Below the pieces are notes generated by a model. That model was not told the DNA's origin. It ran no database searches and saw only the letters and a program-made list of their open reading frames with translations. Positions 41,582-49,619 of a stretch of DNA of 64,000 nucleotides are shown piece by piece. Both the position numbers and the translations under genes were made by a program. The stretch comes from Saccharofermentans sp. (lineage in GTDB: Bacteria; Bacillota; Clostridia; Saccharofermentanales; Saccharofermentanaceae), in assembly GCA_024691325.1 (NCBI GenBank), contig JAILNR010000019.1, positions 1 through 64,000 on the forward strand, read 5' to 3'. Every line of letters starts with the position of its first letter. Position 1 is the first letter of the stretch.

Positions 41582-41731
41582 AATGTCTAAAAACAAGGCC
41601 TCTAAAGCGGTTTTTTTGCCATTTTGACAAGTTACATGTAAGACACGCGCGATGATATAATTTACACGTGGCATTTCTCGCCACATTCGTTGGTTTTCAG
41701 AGGGTTTTATCATCAAAGAAAGAGGCGCGAT

Positions 41732-42247
41732 ATGAGTTTCTCGAAGGGCGAGACAGTAGTTTACGGCGGTAGCGGTGTTTGCCAGATTGACGATATCAAG
41801 GATGTTCGCTTTTATCACGAGCGTCCCCAGAAGTACTATATCTTAAAGCCCCTCTTTGTAAATCAGGCACAGGTTGTATATGTGCCTTACAATAACGAGA
41901 AACTGACTGCCAAGATAAAGCCTGTTATTTCCAAGAAGGAAGCGCTTGATCTCATTCATAATATCAAGGATGGTTCATTGAAGTGGATCGAAGACAGAAA
42001 TGAGCGCAAGGAAGTCTATAACGGACTCATCTCAAGCGGAGACAGAAAGAGCATCGTGGATGTCATAACCGCCATCACCGCACACAGACGTGAGCTTGAG
42101 GATGAGGGCAAGACATTGAACCAGCAGGATGAGAAGATCCTGACAGATGCAGAGAGAAGAATGAATGCTGAGTTCGCAGTGGCTCTCGGCATGGATCCCA
42201 AGGAGATTCCGGATTTCATCCAGGAAGAGAAAGCCAAGGTCAGCTGA
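41732..42247 (+). CDS. CarD family transcriptional regulator
   Basis: FSKGETVVYGGSGVCQIDDIKD...YYILKPLF. Confidence 0.93.
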   Translation: MSFSKGETVVYGGSGVCQIDDIKDVRFYHERPQKYYILKPLFVNQAQVVYVPYNNEKLTAKIKPVISKKEALDLIHNIKDGSLKWIEDRNERKEVYNGLISSGDRKSIVDVITAITAHRRELEDEGKTLNQQDEKILTDAERRMNAEFAVALGMDPKEIPDFIQEEKAKVS

Positions 42248-42286: not shown

Positions 42287-42316
42287 TTGACAATTCCTAT
42301 GGTTTTGATGTTTAAT
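42287..42316 (+). promoter_or_regulatory. Predicted promoter TTGACA-N18-TTTAAT for chorismate operon
   Basis: TTGACA 42287-42292, TTTAAT 42311-42316; predicted TSS at or next to the leader-peptide ATG. Confidence 0.6.
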
Positions 42317-42323
42317 CTACGGC

Positions 42324-42386
42324 ATGAACAGAAACTTTTACGCATTTGCATACAACTATTATTACTACTTTACGAACGTGAAGTAA
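42324..42386 (+). CDS. Tyr/Phe-rich leader peptide MNRNFYAFAYNYYYYFTNVK (attenuation)
   Basis: 20-codon ORF with 6 Tyr and 3 Phe, followed by intrinsic terminator and DAHP synthase. Confidence 0.82.
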   Translation: MNRNFYAFAYNYYYYFTNVK

Positions 42387-42436
42387 GAGTGGTTTGTGCA
42401 AGCAGGAAGTTAATGGAAAACTGATTTAAATGATAG

Positions 42437-42469
42437 GCGCCGCACGAATCACTCGGGCGGCGCTTTTTT
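42437..42469 (+). terminator. Intrinsic terminator/attenuator upstream of DAHP synthase
   Basis: GCGCCGC (42437-42443) pairs with GCGGCGC (42457-42463), inner CGA/TCG pairs, then TTTTTT. Confidence 0.88.
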
Positions 42470-42521: not shown

Positions 42522-43520
42522 ATGATTGCAGTATTGAAGGAAAGCGCAACAGAACAACAGATTCAGAACCTTACTACCTGGTTCGAGTCTCAGGGAGTTA
42601 AGGTTAACCGCTCCAAGGGTGATTATGTCACCATCTTAGGTCTCATCGGAGACACAACAAAGATCGACATCGATCTTTTAAGAGGCCTCGACATTATCGA
42701 TAATGTAATGAGAATCTCCGAGCCCTTCAAGAAGGCAAACAGAAAGTTCCATCCCGAGGATTCTGTAGTTGATATAAGCGGCGTTAAGATCGGCGGCGGC
42801 AACTTCGCAGTTATGGCGGGTCCGTGCTCAGTTGAGAACGAGGAACAGATAATCGAGACTGCAAAGGCAGTTAAGGCTGCAGGCGCAACACTCTTAAGAG
42901 GCGGAGCTTACAAGCCGAGGACATCTCCTTACGATTTCCAGGGCCTTCACGAAGAGGGAATCAAGCTTCTTATTAAGGCAAGAGAGGAAACCGGTCTTCC
43001 TATCGTATCCGAGATCATGAGTCCCGATCAGATCCCTGTCTTTGAGGAAGTCGACTGTCTGCAGGTAGGTGCACGAAACATGCAGAACTTCGACCTTCTT
43101 AAAGCAATCGGTAAGACAAATAAGCCTGTACTTCTTAAGCGCGGTCTTTCCGCTACCATCAAGGAGTGGCTCATGAGTGCTGAGTACATCATGAGTGAGG
43201 GCAACTCCAATGTCATCCTCTGCGAGAGAGGAATCAGAACATACGAGACATACACGAGAAACACTTTCGATGTAAGTGCTATCTCCGCTTTGAAGGAGCT
43301 TACACACCTTCCTGTTGTAGGTGATCCTTCTCACGCTACCGGCAAGGTATCGCTCATCGAGCCTATGGCTATGGCTGCAGTCGTATCCGGCGCAGACGGA
43401 CTCGAGATCGAAGTTCATAACTGCCCCAAGAAGGCTTTATCCGATGCTGCACAGCAGTTGACACCCGACCAGTTCATCGGTGTAATGGAGTCTATCAACA
43501 AGGCCAGAAGCATACTCTGA
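42522..43520 (+). CDS. aroF: 3-deoxy-7-phosphoheptulonate synthase, type I-beta with N-terminal regulatory domain
   Basis: MAGPCSVENEEQI, GGAYKPRTSPYDFQGL, LLKRGLSATIKEWL, DPSHATGK. Confidence 0.95.
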   Translation: MIAVLKESATEQQIQNLTTWFESQGVKVNRSKGDYVTILGLIGDTTKIDIDLLRGLDIIDNVMRISEPFKKANRKFHPEDSVVDISGVKIGGGNFAVMAGPCSVENEEQIIETAKAVKAAGATLLRGGAYKPRTSPYDFQGLHEEGIKLLIKAREETGLPIVSEIMSPDQIPVFEEVDCLQVGARNMQNFDLLKAIGKTNKPVLLKRGLSATIKEWLMSAEYIMSEGNSNVILCERGIRTYETYTRNTFDVSAISALKELTHLPVVGDPSHATGKVSLIEPMAMAAVVSGADGLEIEVHNCPKKALSDAAQQLTPDQFIGVMESINKARSIL

Positions 43521-43550: not shown

Positions 43551-44390
43551 ATGAGTATTACAGTCGGCGTAGTGGGTCTCGGCCTTATAGGAGCTTCATT
43601 CTGTAAGGCTTACAAGGAAAGCGGAGCACGGGTGTACGGCTGGAACCGCACACGTTCAACGGCTCAGATGGCAAAGATGCAGGGCGTCATAGACGATTAT
43701 CTAACGGATGATAATCTGGGCACATGCGATCTTGTTATCGTCTCACTTTATCCTGAGGCATCAGTCGAGTGGATGAGGACTCATAAGGACAGCTTCAACA
43801 AGGCGGGTATCGTTATCGATGCATGCGGAACCAAGAAATATATTTGTGAGGAAGGCTTCAAGATTGCAAAGGAAGCAGGCTTTACTTTCGTAGGGTGTCA
43901 TCCGATGGCGGGTTTGCAGTACTCGGGTATGTCTTATGCGAAGGCAGATCTTTATGTGGGCGCTCCCATGGTTGTGGTTCCTCCGGTCTTTGATGACATC
44001 AATCTTCTCGACAGAGTAAAGAATCTTCTTATACCCTGCAAATTCGGAAGCTTCCACGTGGCTCATGCCGAGCAGCATGACAGGATGATATCTTTTACTT
44101 CGCAGATGCCGCATGTAATCTCGAATGCATATATCAAGAGCCCTAATGCGAGAGAGCACAAGGGATTCTCGGGCGGATCATATAAGGACTTAACGAGAGT
44201 TGCCAGTCTTAATCCTACGATGTGGACAGAACTGTTCTTTGAGAACAAGGATAACCTGATCTTCGAGATCGAGAATCTTCAGAATGAACTTCAGAAGTAT
44301 AAGGAAGCTCTTATAAATGATGATCATAAGAAGATGTACGATTTGCTTGAAGAAGGAAGCAGGATTAAGGACGAGGTCGACGGTAAATGA
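43551..44390 (+). CDS. tyrA: Prephenate dehydrogenase
   Basis: GVVGLGLIGASFCKAYK; GCHPMAGLQYSGMSYA. Confidence 0.9.
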   Translation: MSITVGVVGLGLIGASFCKAYKESGARVYGWNRTRSTAQMAKMQGVIDDYLTDDNLGTCDLVIVSLYPEASVEWMRTHKDSFNKAGIVIDACGTKKYICEEGFKIAKEAGFTFVGCHPMAGLQYSGMSYAKADLYVGAPMVVVPPVFDDINLLDRVKNLLIPCKFGSFHVAHAEQHDRMISFTSQMPHVISNAYIKSPNAREHKGFSGGSYKDLTRVASLNPTMWTELFFENKDNLIFEIENLQNELQKYKEALINDDHKKMYDLLEEGSRIKDEVDGK

Positions 44391-45451
44391 TCAAGACAAA
44401 GGTTAAGGCATCCAGGAATTACACTGTAATTACGGGAAGAAGACTGATCGGGCGCACGGGCAAGCTTATCGAGGAGATACGCCCCTTTGCAAAGAAGATC
44501 CTTATCGTAAGTGAGAGCCGTGTGGCTCCTCATTATCTTGCAAGAGTAAAGGCATCGTGCGAGAAGAGCGGCTTTGAAGTATATGACTATGTCTTCGAGG
44601 CCGGTGAGAGATCCAAGAACATTAATACTATAGCGGGCATGTGGGGCGCGATGGCAAAAGCGGGCTTTACAAGAACCGACCTTATAGTTGCTTTGGGAGG
44701 AGGAGTCTGCGGCGACATGGCAGGATTTGCTGCCGCCACATTCCTTCGCGGTATAGACTTCATTCAGATACCGACATCACTTCTTGCGATGGTCGATGCA
44801 TCTATCGGAGGCAAGACAGGAATCGATCTTGCCGAGGGAAAGAATCAGGTGGGCGCATTCTGGCAGCCGTCACTTGTAATAGAAGATATAAGCTGTCTTG
44901 ATACATTGCCTGAAGGTGTTTTTATAGAGGGCATGGCTGAGGTTATCAAGTATGCGTTTATTATGGATCTGCCGCTATATAATCTTCTGTGTGAGAACAC
45001 ACTCGGATCATTGAGAAGTGATCCGCTCCTTCTTGAGAAAGTGGTCGGGATGTGTGTAAAAGATAAAGCGCATGTCATCGAGAATGATGAGCATGATAAC
45101 GGCATCAGGCAAACTTTAAATTACGGTCACACCGTGGGACACGTCATCGAGAAAAACAACAATTTCAGACTGCCTCACGGTATATGCGTCGCGAAGGGCA
45201 TGGGCATCATGATAGATGCGTGCGAGAGAAACAGCACATTGTCTTACGAGGATGCCTCGAATATGAAAGACCTGATAAAGGCATACGGCCTTCCCGTAAG
45301 TGATGAGATAACACCTGAACAGGCAGTGGCCGGCGCTATGAATGATAAGAAGAAGAGAGGCTCGATCCTCTCGGTCATTCTGGTAAATAAGATCGGTCAC
45401 TCTCAGATCAAGAACATGACACATAAAGAGTATCTGGAGTTTTTGAAGTAA
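44387..45451 (+). CDS. aroB: 3-dehydroquinate synthase
   Basis: ALGGGVCGDMAGFAAATFLRGIDFIQIPTSLLAMVDASIGGKTGIDL. Confidence 0.96.
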   Translation: MIKTKVKASRNYTVITGRRLIGRTGKLIEEIRPFAKKILIVSESRVAPHYLARVKASCEKSGFEVYDYVFEAGERSKNINTIAGMWGAMAKAGFTRTDLIVALGGGVCGDMAGFAAATFLRGIDFIQIPTSLLAMVDASIGGKTGIDLAEGKNQVGAFWQPSLVIEDISCLDTLPEGVFIEGMAEVIKYAFIMDLPLYNLLCENTLGSLRSDPLLLEKVVGMCVKDKAHVIENDEHDNGIRQTLNYGHTVGHVIEKNNNFRLPHGICVAKGMGIMIDACERNSTLSYEDASNMKDLIKAYGLPVSDEITPEQAVAGAMNDKKKRGSILSVILVNKIGHSQIKNMTHKEYLEFLK

Positions 45452-45454
45452 TAT

Positions 45455-46582
45455 ATGCGTCTTAAGATAAAGGACAGAAGATTCGATTTTTGTGCGCAGG
45501 CGCCGGACTCAAAATCGGTGTACCACAGAGAGCTCATAGTAAGGTTTCTGCACGGGATAAAAGACGATCTTTCTTTCCGGGATTCAGACAGCAAGGATAT
45601 CACGGCAACCAAGGAATGCCTTAAAGCTTTGTCATCAGATCAGAATGTTTTGGACTGTAATGAATCCGGTTCGACATTAAGGTTTATGATCCCTGTCGCA
45701 TGCGCTTTTCTTAAGTCACAGAACAAAAAGATCAGGCTTGTTTTTAAGACCGCGGGCCGCTTGTTTGACAGGCCTCTTGATGATCTTGAGATTTGTCTTG
45801 GCGAACATGGCATCGTTATAAGTAAAGATGCTCAAACAAGAAGTTTCATAGTAGAGGGGGATTTGACGGAAGGGCGCTTTGTGATAGACGGAAGTGTCTC
45901 TTCACAATACGTATCCGGTCTTCTGATGGCGATGATCGTCTTGCCTCACTCAAATGTTGAGGTTAAGGGCGAGGCATCTTCCATTCACTATATCGAACTT
46001 ACAAAGGCCGTTATCGGCAAGTATGCGGGAGGCGTCTTAAATCCTGAACTTGATGTGGAAGGAGACTGGTCAGCTGGTGCATTTCTTTTGTGCCTCGATA
46101 AACTTATAGACGGACATGTAAGCGTCGGGAATCTTAATGCGGATTCGGTTCAGGGCGATAAGGAGATATTAAAGTTTCTCTCCTCGTGCGGCGCGGATGA
46201 ACTTACCTGGGACTGCAGGGACATTCCCGATATCGTTCCCTATATGGCGGTTACAGCTGCATTCACCAACAAAAAGACGGTGTTTAAAAACATAAGCAGG
46301 CTCCGTGTTAAAGAGTCTGACCGCGTCGCTGCTATAAGAGAGCAGCTTTCCGAAGCGGGCATCAAAACAGAAGAGACCCAAGACGATCTTACGGTCCTGG
46401 CCTATGAGGAAAATCATCCGTCAGACACGGTAAGTCTTAAATCTTATAATGATCACAGGATGGTGATGTCGGCACTTCTTCTGGCATGCGCTTTAAGATG
46501 TGATCTTGATATTGATACAATAGACCCGGTGGATAAATCTTTCCCCGGACTTAAAAGCATTATAAGGGAGGAGTTCTCTTAA
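45455..46582 (+). CDS. aroA: 3-phosphoshikimate 1-carboxyvinyltransferase (EPSP synthase)
   Basis: DSKSVYHRELI, NESGSTLRFMIP, RLRVKESDRVAA, DHRMVMSALL. Confidence 0.93.
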   Translation: MRLKIKDRRFDFCAQAPDSKSVYHRELIVRFLHGIKDDLSFRDSDSKDITATKECLKALSSDQNVLDCNESGSTLRFMIPVACAFLKSQNKKIRLVFKTAGRLFDRPLDDLEICLGEHGIVISKDAQTRSFIVEGDLTEGRFVIDGSVSSQYVSGLLMAMIVLPHSNVEVKGEASSIHYIELTKAVIGKYAGGVLNPELDVEGDWSAGAFLLCLDKLIDGHVSVGNLNADSVQGDKEILKFLSSCGADELTWDCRDIPDIVPYMAVTAAFTNKKTVFKNISRLRVKESDRVAAIREQLSEAGIKTEETQDDLTVLAYEENHPSDTVSLKSYNDHRMVMSALLLACALRCDLDIDTIDPVDKSFPGLKSIIREEFS

Positions 46583-47685
46583 TGAGTATGGACAGCACAT
46601 ACAGGGGAGATAAGCTCGAGCTTAAGATCTACGGGCAGTCTCACAGCCCCACGATAGGTGTCTTCATCAAAGGACTCCCCGACGGCGTTAATCCTGACGA
46701 GGACTTCACACGCGCACTTATGGCAAGGCGCGCTCCGGGAAAGAATAAGTGGTCCACGCCCAGAAACGAGAAGGACGAGGTCATCTTCGAAAAGTTTGAG
46801 GACACACTTCACGGCTACATCGTTAACACCAACACAAAGCCCAAGGACTATGCCTCGATCTTAAACAAGCCGAGGCCGGGACACGCTGATTACACTGGAA
46901 AGATCAAGTATAAAGATGAAGCCGCACAAAGCGGAGGCGGAATCTTCTCAGGAAGAATGACTGCACCTCTTTGTATCGCGGGATCGATCGCGATGAACGA
47001 ACTTAACAAGCGCGGAATAAATGTATATGCACATCTTAAAAAGTGCGGCGGCGTTAAGGATGAATCCTATTATGACCACAGCGTTAATGATGAAGGGTTC
47101 AAAAAGAAACTCTCTTTGGTCTGCACAAAGGAATTTCCTTCTGTAAGTGATGAGGCAGGTGAGAAGATGAAGGCAAAGATCGAGGAAGCAAGGCTTGACC
47201 TTGATTCTGTCGGCGCTGTCGTTGAGTGCGTCATCTACGGTTTGCCTGCGGGTCTGGGAGGACCTATTTTCGACGGGCTTGAGGGCAAGATAGCAAACCT
47301 TATCTACGCTATTCCTGCTGTCAAAGGTGTTGAGTTTGGTGCCGGTTTTGATGTTGCGGATATGAGAGGGTCGCAGAATAACGATGCGTTCGAATACGAG
47401 GACGGCAAGGTTGTTCTGAAGACAAATAACTGCGGCGGAATACTGGGTGGAATAAGTGTGGGTGATGCGGCGCCCCTGGTGTTTGACTGTGCTTTCAAGC
47501 CCACGCCTTCAATCGGTAAGACACAGAAGACTATTGATATTAAACAAAAGAATAATACAGATATAAATATAGAGGGCAGACACGATCCGTGTGTTGCTCC
47601 CCGCGCCGTGCCCGTAGTAGAGGCTGCGGCTGCGCTGGCTGTTTACGATGCGGTCCTTGCGGAGGAAAGTGATGAAAACGCTTGA
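46582..47685 (+). CDS. aroC: Chorismate synthase
   Basis: SHSPTIGVFIKGLPDG, MARRAPGKNKWSTPRNEKDEVIF, RHDPCVAPRAVPVVEA. Confidence 0.95.
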   Translation: MSMDSTYRGDKLELKIYGQSHSPTIGVFIKGLPDGVNPDEDFTRALMARRAPGKNKWSTPRNEKDEVIFEKFEDTLHGYIVNTNTKPKDYASILNKPRPGHADYTGKIKYKDEAAQSGGGIFSGRMTAPLCIAGSIAMNELNKRGINVYAHLKKCGGVKDESYYDHSVNDEGFKKKLSLVCTKEFPSVSDEAGEKMKAKIEEARLDLDSVGAVVECVIYGLPAGLGGPIFDGLEGKIANLIYAIPAVKGVEFGAGFDVADMRGSQNNDAFEYEDGKVVLKTNNCGGILGGISVGDAAPLVFDCAFKPTPSIGKTQKTIDIKQKNNTDINIEGRHDPCVAPRAVPVVEAAAALAVYDAVLAEESDENA

Positions 47686-49207
47686 TGAATTAAGACGTGA
47701 CATAGACGCGGCTGATAAGGATCTGATCGATGCTTTTGCAAGAAGACTTAAGACCGCGAAGGCTATAGGCGAGTTAAAGAAGATAGAGGGCAAGCCCGTA
47801 TTCGATGAGGCACGCGAAGCCGCGAAGATCGGCAGCCTCAAGTCACTTGCAGCGTTTGAAGCAAGGCCGTATGTGGACAGACTTTATAAAGAGGTTATGG
47901 GGATTGCAAAAGACTTGGAGTCGAAGCCTCTGTTCGGAGTGCTCGGCAAGTCGATACCTCATACTTATTCCCCGCAGATCCATAGTCTTATTACGGATGA
48001 GTATGCATATACAGTCATCGAGAGAGATGAAGACGAATTGGATGAACTCTGGTCTCAGGGTAAAAGAGGTGTGTACGGAGGCTTTAACGTAACCATCCCC
48101 TACAAGCGTAATGCCTGTGCTTTGTGCGATGAATTAACAGAAGGCGCAGCCAACATCAAGGCGGTCAACACGGTCGTCTTTAAAGAGAACGGCAGGACTC
48201 TCGGAGCTAATACGGATGTTTACGGTTTTGAATACATGCTTAAGTCCTCGGGCATCGATCCAAACGGGAAAGCAGTTCTCATCCTGGGAACGGGAGGTGC
48301 GTCTGCCGCTGTTAAAGAGGCTCTCACAAGACTTAAGTCCGGAAGCATCAGATTCGTAAGCAGGTCCGGCGACATCAATTACGGCAATGTTTACGATGCG
48401 TGTGCTGATGCCAACATTATCGTTAACTGTACTCCTGTCGGCATGTATCCTGAAGTGACGGATTCACCTATAGACCTTACGAGATTTACGAATCTTGAGG
48501 CTGTTGCAGATATAGTCTATAACCCGTCATGCACGAGACTTCTTTATGATGCAGAAAAGCTCGGCCTTAAGACGGCGGGCGGACTTAAGATGCTGGTTGC
48601 ACAGGCGTTCAAGGCATCCGCATTCTTCTTAGGTGCCGCGAATGATGAAGAGGCGGAAGCGCGTGTAAATGAAAGTGACATAAAAAGGGTTACCGGCATT
48701 CTTGAGAACCGCATGAAGAACATAACGGTGATCGGTATGCCGGGGTCAGGCAAGACAGAGTTTGCGAAGGAACTTGCTTTGCGCCTCGGAAGAGAATTTA
48801 TAGATCTTGATGATGAGTACACTAAGGATTATGGTGTGACTCCCGCACAGACGATAGAGAATGAAGGTGAGGAGACATTCAGAAAGAATGAATCCCTGAC
48901 AGCTCTTAAGCACCTTATCAAAAGCGGATGCGTTATATCGTGCGGCGGCGGCATCGTGACAAAGCAGCAAAATGCTTTTCCTTTAAAGTGCAACTCACGT
49001 GTTATTTATAATGAGCGTCCTCTTGAGGCACTTGCTTTGGGCGGCAGACCCATAAGTGCGGCAAAGGGTACAGCGGCGATTTACGAAGAGCGTAAGGATG
49101 CGTATGAATCTCTTGCGGATATGAAAATATCCGTCGGTGCGAAGCAGACACCTGAGGAATATATTGAGGAGGCAGTGAGGATCTACCATGAAAATACTTG
49201 TTCTTAA
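47672..49207 (+). CDS. Trifunctional fusion: chorismate mutase (AroQ-type) + shikimate dehydrogenase + shikimate kinase
   Basis: LDELRRDIDAADKDLIDAFARR (CM); GKSIPHTYSPQIHSL, GGFNVTIPYKR, LGTGGAS (AroE); IGMPGSGKTEFAKELA, SCGGGIV, GGRPI (AroK). Confidence 0.93.
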   Translation: MKTLDELRRDIDAADKDLIDAFARRLKTAKAIGELKKIEGKPVFDEAREAAKIGSLKSLAAFEARPYVDRLYKEVMGIAKDLESKPLFGVLGKSIPHTYSPQIHSLITDEYAYTVIERDEDELDELWSQGKRGVYGGFNVTIPYKRNACALCDELTEGAANIKAVNTVVFKENGRTLGANTDVYGFEYMLKSSGIDPNGKAVLILGTGGASAAVKEALTRLKSGSIRFVSRSGDINYGNVYDACADANIIVNCTPVGMYPEVTDSPIDLTRFTNLEAVADIVYNPSCTRLLYDAEKLGLKTAGGLKMLVAQAFKASAFFLGAANDEEAEARVNESDIKRVTGILENRMKNITVIGMPGSGKTEFAKELALRLGREFIDLDDEYTKDYGVTPAQTIENEGEETFRKNESLTALKHLIKSGCVISCGGGIVTKQQNAFPLKCNSRVIYNERPLEALALGGRPISAAKGTAAIYEERKDAYESLADMKISVGAKQTPEEYIEEAVRIYHENTCS

Positions 49208-49619
49208 CGGACCTAACCTTAACATGCTCGGCATAAGAGAGCCCGACATCTACGGCAAAAAGACATACGCGGATCTCACCGCACTTATAAAAGCACACTG
49301 CGAAAAGAACAATATCGATGTCACCTTCAAGCAGAGCAATCACGAGGGTGCACTTGTTGACTTCATACAGCAGGCGTACTTCGAGAAATGCGATGGCATC
49401 GTTATCAACCCCGGTGCCTATACGCATACTTCGGTTGCAATCCTGGATGCACTTAAGGCAGTTGCCATTCCTTTTGTGGAAGTACACATAAGTGATATCG
49501 ATGAGCGTGAGGGATTCCGCCAGATATCGTACATTTCGAGCATAGCCGAGACGACTATAAAAGGACGCGGATTTGACGGTTATATCGAAGCTGTGGATTT
49601 CCTTAAAGAGCGTTTATGA
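49188..49619 (+). CDS. aroQ: 3-dehydroquinate dehydratase type II
   Basis: LNGPNLNMLGIREPDIYG, QSNHEGALVDFIQ, NPGAYTHTSVAILDAL. Confidence 0.96.
   Translation: MKILVLNGPNLNMLGIREPDIYGKKTYADLTALIKAHCEKNNIDVTFKQSNHEGALVDFIQQAYFEKCDGIVINPGAYTHTSVAILDALKAVAIPFVEVHISDIDEREGFRQISYISSIAETTIKGRGFDGYIEAVDFLKERL

Follow-up and report, generated by a model that had tools for sequence, protein, structure and literature searches.

The window, by which we mean the whole 64,000-nucleotide stretch of Saccharofermentans DNA analysed here, carries on its forward strand a complete chorismate/tyrosine operon that runs from aroF to aroQ. The first gene, aroF (42522-43520), encodes the type I-beta DAHP synthase already named in the preliminary description of this locus; its product matches PRK08673, TIGR01361, PF00793 and PF18152, and carries an N-terminal ferredoxin-like domain. 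It is followed by tyrA, for prephenate dehydrogenase (43551-44390; PF02153 and PF20463, with another profile match below curated cut-offs), aroB, for 3-dehydroquinate synthase (44387-45451; TIGR01357), aroA, for EPSP synthase (45455-46582; TIGR01356, below the curated cut-off), aroC, for chorismate synthase (46582-47685; TIGR00033), a gene fusing chorismate mutase, shikimate dehydrogenase and shikimate kinase (47648-49207; PF01817 (CM_2), PF08501 and PF01202), and aroQ, for a type II 3-dehydroquinate dehydratase (49188-49619; TIGR01088). The upstream neighbour is a CarD-like gene (41690-42247), which ends 5' of the leader promoter.

Ahead of aroF we find a leader peptide ORF (42324-42386, forward strand) that starts with an ATG at 42324, ends with a TAA at 42384-42386 and encodes MNRNFYAFAYNYYYYFTNVK. 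Six of its 20 codons are Tyr and three are Phe, Trp is absent, and codons 12-15 (42357-42368) form an uninterrupted YYYY run, which bears out the nine aromatic residues counted earlier. The intrinsic terminator (42436-42469, forward strand) begins 49 nt past the leader stop, as the earlier estimate of about 50 nt had it, and consists of the GC-rich hairpin GGCGCCGCACGAATCACTCGGGCGGCGCT (42436-42464), with a folding energy of about -19 to -20 kcal/mol, followed by TTTTTT. A simple terminator scan that requires an unbroken stem missed this hairpin, probably because the stem contains a mismatch; folding detects it, and covariation and its presence in relatives agree. Folding also finds the antiterminator that the preliminary description had suggested looking for. 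Its 5' arm, GAGUGGUUUGUGC (42387-42399), lies directly after the leader stop codon and forms 13 basepairs with a 3' arm, GCACGAAUCACUC (42442-42454), that overlaps the 5' arm and the loop of the terminator, and the pairing excludes the terminator. Duplex energies and covariation also locate the 5' arm. The preliminary description had identified neither these arms nor the TTGACA/TTTAAT promoter considered below.

The whole leader folds more stably than 200 of 200 shuffled sequences (z -3.9). When it is free of ribosomes, the minimum free energy fold has a long 1:2 structure (pause, or anti-antiterminator; 42329-42415), with the terminator formed. To model translation of the leader, we stepped a ribosome through the ORF one codon at a time and folded whatever RNA it left exposed. 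For the full transcript, the lowest-energy structure contains the antiterminator only while the A site is on about codons 12-15, the predicted stall site; at other codons it contains the terminator. In partition function calculations with footprint edges at P+13, P+15 and P+17, the terminator probability in the window is 0-0.2 near codons 12-15, intermediate at neighbouring positions, and at least 0.8 at codons 2-10 and 19-20; the switch window is stable within one codon across the three edges. Compared with synonymous shuffles, the 1:2 pairing reaches the 0.05 level in 25 of 93 loci, where 4.7 are expected, but in the window alone it is not significant (p = 0.205).

Conservation in relatives, which had been proposed as a check on the leader, is extensive. 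Of 112 related aroF loci, almost all from Clostridia, 98 have a Tyr/Phe-rich leader, and 94 of those 98 have an intrinsic terminator between the leader and aroF. In about 14 of the 112 no leader could be detected, and the aroF loci from the other families of the order likewise yielded no clear one. Named records, almost exclusively of Clostridia, supplied a sample of 80 aroF loci. An ORF with at least six Tyr/Phe per 10 codons occurs within 300 nt upstream in 67 of these, compared to none of the 80 in a reverse-strand control and 15 of 800 dinucleotide shuffles (1.9%), so the ORF is not a chance occurrence. Within each of two same-genus groups, changes at the Y/F positions are solely synonymous or exchange Tyr and Phe. 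The core AY(N/S)YYYYF is kept across much of the genus; across the Clostridia the peptide diverges freely, as in MSRNYFTAYFYFYFRS and MHVPSFAAQFFFGYYYFFFWER, and only the density of Tyr and Phe is kept. All 33 same-genus loci, including that of the window, have the leader, one of them damaged: at L022 (genome G020) the ORF is shortened to MLLLLL, apparently by a deletion between two TTATG repeats, and is either a natural attenuator mutant or an assembly error. A further relative, L062, comes from a record titled Treponema sp. MAG. It has a 71%-identical aroF and a like leader, and is probably a misbinned contig or a transfer.

The antiterminator is found across the relatives as well. In a search that began 3' of the middle aromatic codon, and is therefore biased towards arms in that region, the antiterminator duplex has a median energy of -17.9 kcal/mol versus -11.4 kcal/mol for shuffles, with p <= 0.05 in 68 of 94 loci; in 92 of the 94, placing a ribosome on the stop codon costs the antiterminator more than 3 kcal/mol. 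In an unbiased repeat that dropped this restriction, 76 of the 94 loci had an arm left clear by the ribosome at no fewer than half of the Y/F codons and occluded over at least half of its length by a ribosome on the stop codon. Both helices show compensatory changes in an alignment of 30 sequences. For the antiterminator, 93% of the cells are paired, with 20 double-changed cells and a covariation score of 0.382; pairings slid by 1-3 columns have 28-52% of cells paired and scores of at most 0.139. For the terminator, 97% of the cells are paired, with 40 double changes, seven pairs changed on both sides and a score of 0.427, versus at most 49% and at most 0.104 when slid by 1-3 columns. These counts include related sequences and are therefore counts of cells, not of independent events. 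Equilibrium folding of the full-length RNA favours the terminator in many relatives wherever the ribosome is placed. A co-transcriptional measure that uses truncated RNA reveals the switch in relatives, whereas equilibrium folding does not in most of them, and for this reason we assume that antitermination in many relatives is kinetic.

Other amino-acid genes of the same genome give a context for the codons in this leader. The gene pheA, for prephenate dehydratase, lies on another contig (L146, G000:C33) and is preceded by the leader MNKNVFTNFDFFFGFGFFTRSE, with nine Phe and no Tyr, whose ATG is at position 1055 of that contig. This leader has a terminator and an antiterminator that begins at the stop codon (-19.2 kcal/mol, reduced to -6.5 kcal/mol with a ribosome at the stop), has no Shine-Dalgarno (SD) sequence, and has a TATAAT 9 nt before the ATG. 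The 12 same-genus pheA loci, including that of the window's genome, all have Phe-rich, Tyr-free and SD-less leaders with a TATAAT 6-9 nt before the ATG. The T-box covariance model (RF00230) has no match at the aroF leader and five elsewhere in the genome, two of them directly 5' of trpE (L150) and of a trpB-like gene (L151), and others 5' of leuA (L137) and ilvB (L149); these gene names were assigned from translations. As read from the sequence, leader codons fit the products, with Tyr and Phe for the operon that contains the common pathway and tyrA, Phe for pheA, and T-boxes in place for Trp, which accounts for the absence of Trp codons from the aroF leader. The earlier statement that Firmicutes tend to use T-boxes for aromatic genes thus holds here for the Trp genes and fails for aroF, which in the sampled Clostridia is normally preceded by a Tyr/Phe leader.

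The start of the leader transcript requires separate consideration. A consensus -35 box, TTGACA (42287-42292), which is kept throughout the window's clade, lies 18 nt from a -10 box, TTTAAT (42311-42316), and sets the expected start of transcription to 42323/42324, the A of the leader ATG or the base before it. A simple sigma-70 scan, which requires an A at position 2 of the -10 box, did not list this promoter. The arrangement TTGACA-17/18-TTTAAT is common to many same-genus loci. In SD-bearing relatives the same promoter has its -10 box about 30 nt before the ATG, while in the window's clade (five species, L002-L005 and L057) every member has only 7 nt between the -10 box and the ATG, and no SD sequence. 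From this spacing and the absence of an SD sequence, the leader of the window is probably translated from a leaderless mRNA. The reading that competes with this one has the leader initiated from a longer transcript, by read-through from the CarD-like gene (41690-42247) or from an upstream promoter. Leaderless mRNAs are thought to be uncommon in Firmicutes, which would favour a longer transcript; however, such a transcript would also lack an SD sequence before 42324, the arrangement TTGACA-17/18-TTTAAT-7-ATG is kept in five species, a second and unrelated cluster of loci has TTGACA-17/18-(-10)-6/7-ATG, again without an SD sequence, and the pheA leaders of the genus are arranged in the same SD-less way. 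We therefore regard a longer transcript as rather unlikely, and return to the leaderless start.

In a tree of aroF proteins, the five loci of the window's clade group together (100/99) within SD-bearing relatives, and the second leaderless-looking group is distant from it (L072, L087, L096, L101, L102, L110 and L111, with L135 assigned to it by inspection). Strongly supported branches force at least four changes of start state. This placement suggests that the window's clade acquired the leaderless state secondarily, and that this state has at least two origins. Taken with the SD-less pheA leaders and their start-proximal -10 boxes, we consider it likely from these sequence comparisons that Clostridia have leaderless leader-peptide attenuators, and that the 5' UTR and SD sequence have been lost independently at aroF at least two times. 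If so, leaderless initiation would let the ribosome that senses the supply begin the moment the 5' end is exposed. Locus L135, which is outside the 98 counted above, has the leader MKKANLSVFAYYFCFGCGR about 159 nt before aroF, with TTGACA-17-TATAAA and no SD sequence. Amongst the SD-bearing relatives, L009-L021, L023, L024 and L027-L030 have a CCGCAG near the predicted 5' end that is complementary to CTGCGG in leader codons 3-5, within the peptide sequence MKTAV. A hairpin between the two would place the SD sequence and the start codon in its loop, and may be the reason why MKTAV is conserved.

The preliminary description had proposed ribosome-mediated attenuation by Tyr and Phe, and the anatomy of the leader, its conservation and the covariation all argue strongly for it. 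Since the architecture is conserved and the antiterminator and terminator both have compensatory changes, it is very likely that the aroF-tyrA-aroB-aroA-aroC-CM/aroE/aroK-aroQ operon is under a classical ribosome-mediated transcription attenuator, which monitors charged Tyr-tRNA and Phe-tRNA. RNA polymerase would start at or within one base of 42324, leaving the leader AUG at the 5' end, to be used without an SD sequence. With ample Tyr and Phe, the ribosome would reach the stop codon at 42384-42386 and cover 42387-42399, the terminator would form and transcription would end. When Tyr-tRNA is short, the ribosome is expected to stall within the YYYY run (codons 12-15) and to leave 42387-42399 free to pair with 42442-42454, so that the terminator would be blocked and the operon read. 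Phe codons 5, 8 and 16 would provide a weaker or flanking input. In an untranslated transcript the leader would fold on itself (42329-42415) and the terminator would form, and therefore the default state would be off. It is from these sequence features that we infer a response of the operon to Tyr and Phe.

A different explanation keeps the terminator but hands its control to a riboswitch that binds Tyr or Phe, to a T-box or to an RNA-binding protein; the ORF, with its many Tyr codons, would then be a by-product of the RNA. In favour of this, the 5' antiterminator arm, GUGAUUUGUGCUGC, shows strong conservation at the RNA level, which a binding site for a protein or ligand would also show. However, no Rfam 15 family, the T-box included, matches the leader locus above threshold, and the best amongst the Rfam amino-acid operon leaders is Thr_leader (RF00506) with 15.7 bits, compared to a gathering cut-off of 55. 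A by-product would also have to account for a Y/F density that is kept while peptide and nucleotides diverge, for Y/F changes in the genus that are only synonymous or between Tyr and Phe, for the position of the antiterminator arm, which is at the leader stop codon in one locus after another, and for a pheA leader that has Phe and no Tyr. We consider control of this kind very improbable. Very improbable too is a nascent-peptide mechanism similar to that of TnaC, in which free tyrosine or phenylalanine would cause YYYYF to arrest the ribosome: the conserved AY(N/S)YYYYF core within much of the genus would suit it, but elsewhere in Clostridia nothing of the peptide except its Y/F density is retained, the N-terminal MKTAV of many relatives coincides with the apparent CUGCGG/upstream CCGCAG pairing, and biosynthetic genes require induction by starvation, the opposite of TnaC logic.

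Attenuation by the ribosome at a leader peptide thus remains our preferred reading, and attenuators of this kind are already known, from pheL and trpL, from aroR-aroF, and from uORFs at aroF and shikimate genes. Enterobacterial pheL and trpL leaders initiate at a Shine-Dalgarno sequence and sense Phe or Trp. The likeness to pheL-pheA and trpL put forward earlier holds for the 1:2, 2:3 and 3:4 logic predicted here; the window's leader differs in that it has no SD sequence and, by its predicted start, essentially no 5' UTR, which had been overlooked, and in that it precedes aroF-tyrA. In the actinobacterium Corynebacterium glutamicum, aroR-aroF has a Phe-Tyr-Phe leader with ribosome stalling, and is induced by Phe but not by Tyr limitation (Neshat 2014, as summarised in PMC11802643). 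As far as that summary describes it, the two have in common an aromatic leader before a DAHP synthase operon and induction on amino-acid limitation (here predicted); they differ in that Tyr outnumbers Phe two to one in the window's leader, with the Tyr run at the predicted decision site. Acholeplasma uORFC-13-1 (PMC8632094; 24 representatives) is likewise a uORF between promoter and terminator, directly 5' of aroF. By its description, it has an RBS, and a run of U residues in it supplies one or more Phe codons, unlike the window's leader, which has no SD sequence and a Tyr run.

In Firmicutes, leader peptides (His leaders) have been reported since 2010 (PMC2965389). Stav et al. (2019; PMC6429828) surveyed five genomes, Clostridium novyi among them, and the accessible text reports two uORFs with notable F/Y codons at shikimate genes. 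One of these may be the element of the window, as Clostridium loci L127 and L131 have such leaders; that text has no visible antiterminator analysis or leaderless start. The view that a Tyr/Phe attenuator is unusual for Firmicutes is not supported given the uORFs in that text and the leaders at 98 of 112 aroF loci: in many Clostridia, the common aromatic pathway appears as a rule to be controlled in this way. The shorthand that Firmicutes use T-boxes fails for this pathway because Tyr/Phe leaders coexist in the same genome with T-boxes for Trp, leucine and branched-chain genes. The element probably goes unannotated, since no Rfam 15 family matches it. The openly readable literature yielded no clostridial Tyr/Phe attenuator with an antiterminator model. 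Judged by the literature searched, what is apparently new is how widespread such leaders are in Clostridia, an antiterminator backed by covariation, the companion system at pheA, and a leaderless state that arose more than once.

Leaderless leader peptides are known in the Actinobacteria. In Streptomyces lividans (PMC8079986), LeuL2, TrpL1 and IlvL lie ahead of terminators and 17% of the transcripts are leaderless; unlike in the window, no Tyr/Phe leader is listed there. No report of leaderless leader peptides from Clostridia was found in the literature searched. Close relatives of the window offer the same attenuator with either an SD-bearing or a probably leaderless leader, a clean natural comparison that makes the effect of leaderless initiation on the timing of transcription-translation coupling testable. 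Genome-wide, TATAAT-N5-8-ATG occurs 143 times versus 108 in a reversed control, an enrichment so mild that leaderless starts are not rampant in this genome. There are three other TTGACA/TATAAT/ATG matches: one is a plausible leaderless 399-aa methyltransferase-like ORF, in the second the start is probably a downstream ATG with an SD sequence, and the third is a 39-codon ORF just 5' of an rpoB-like gene.
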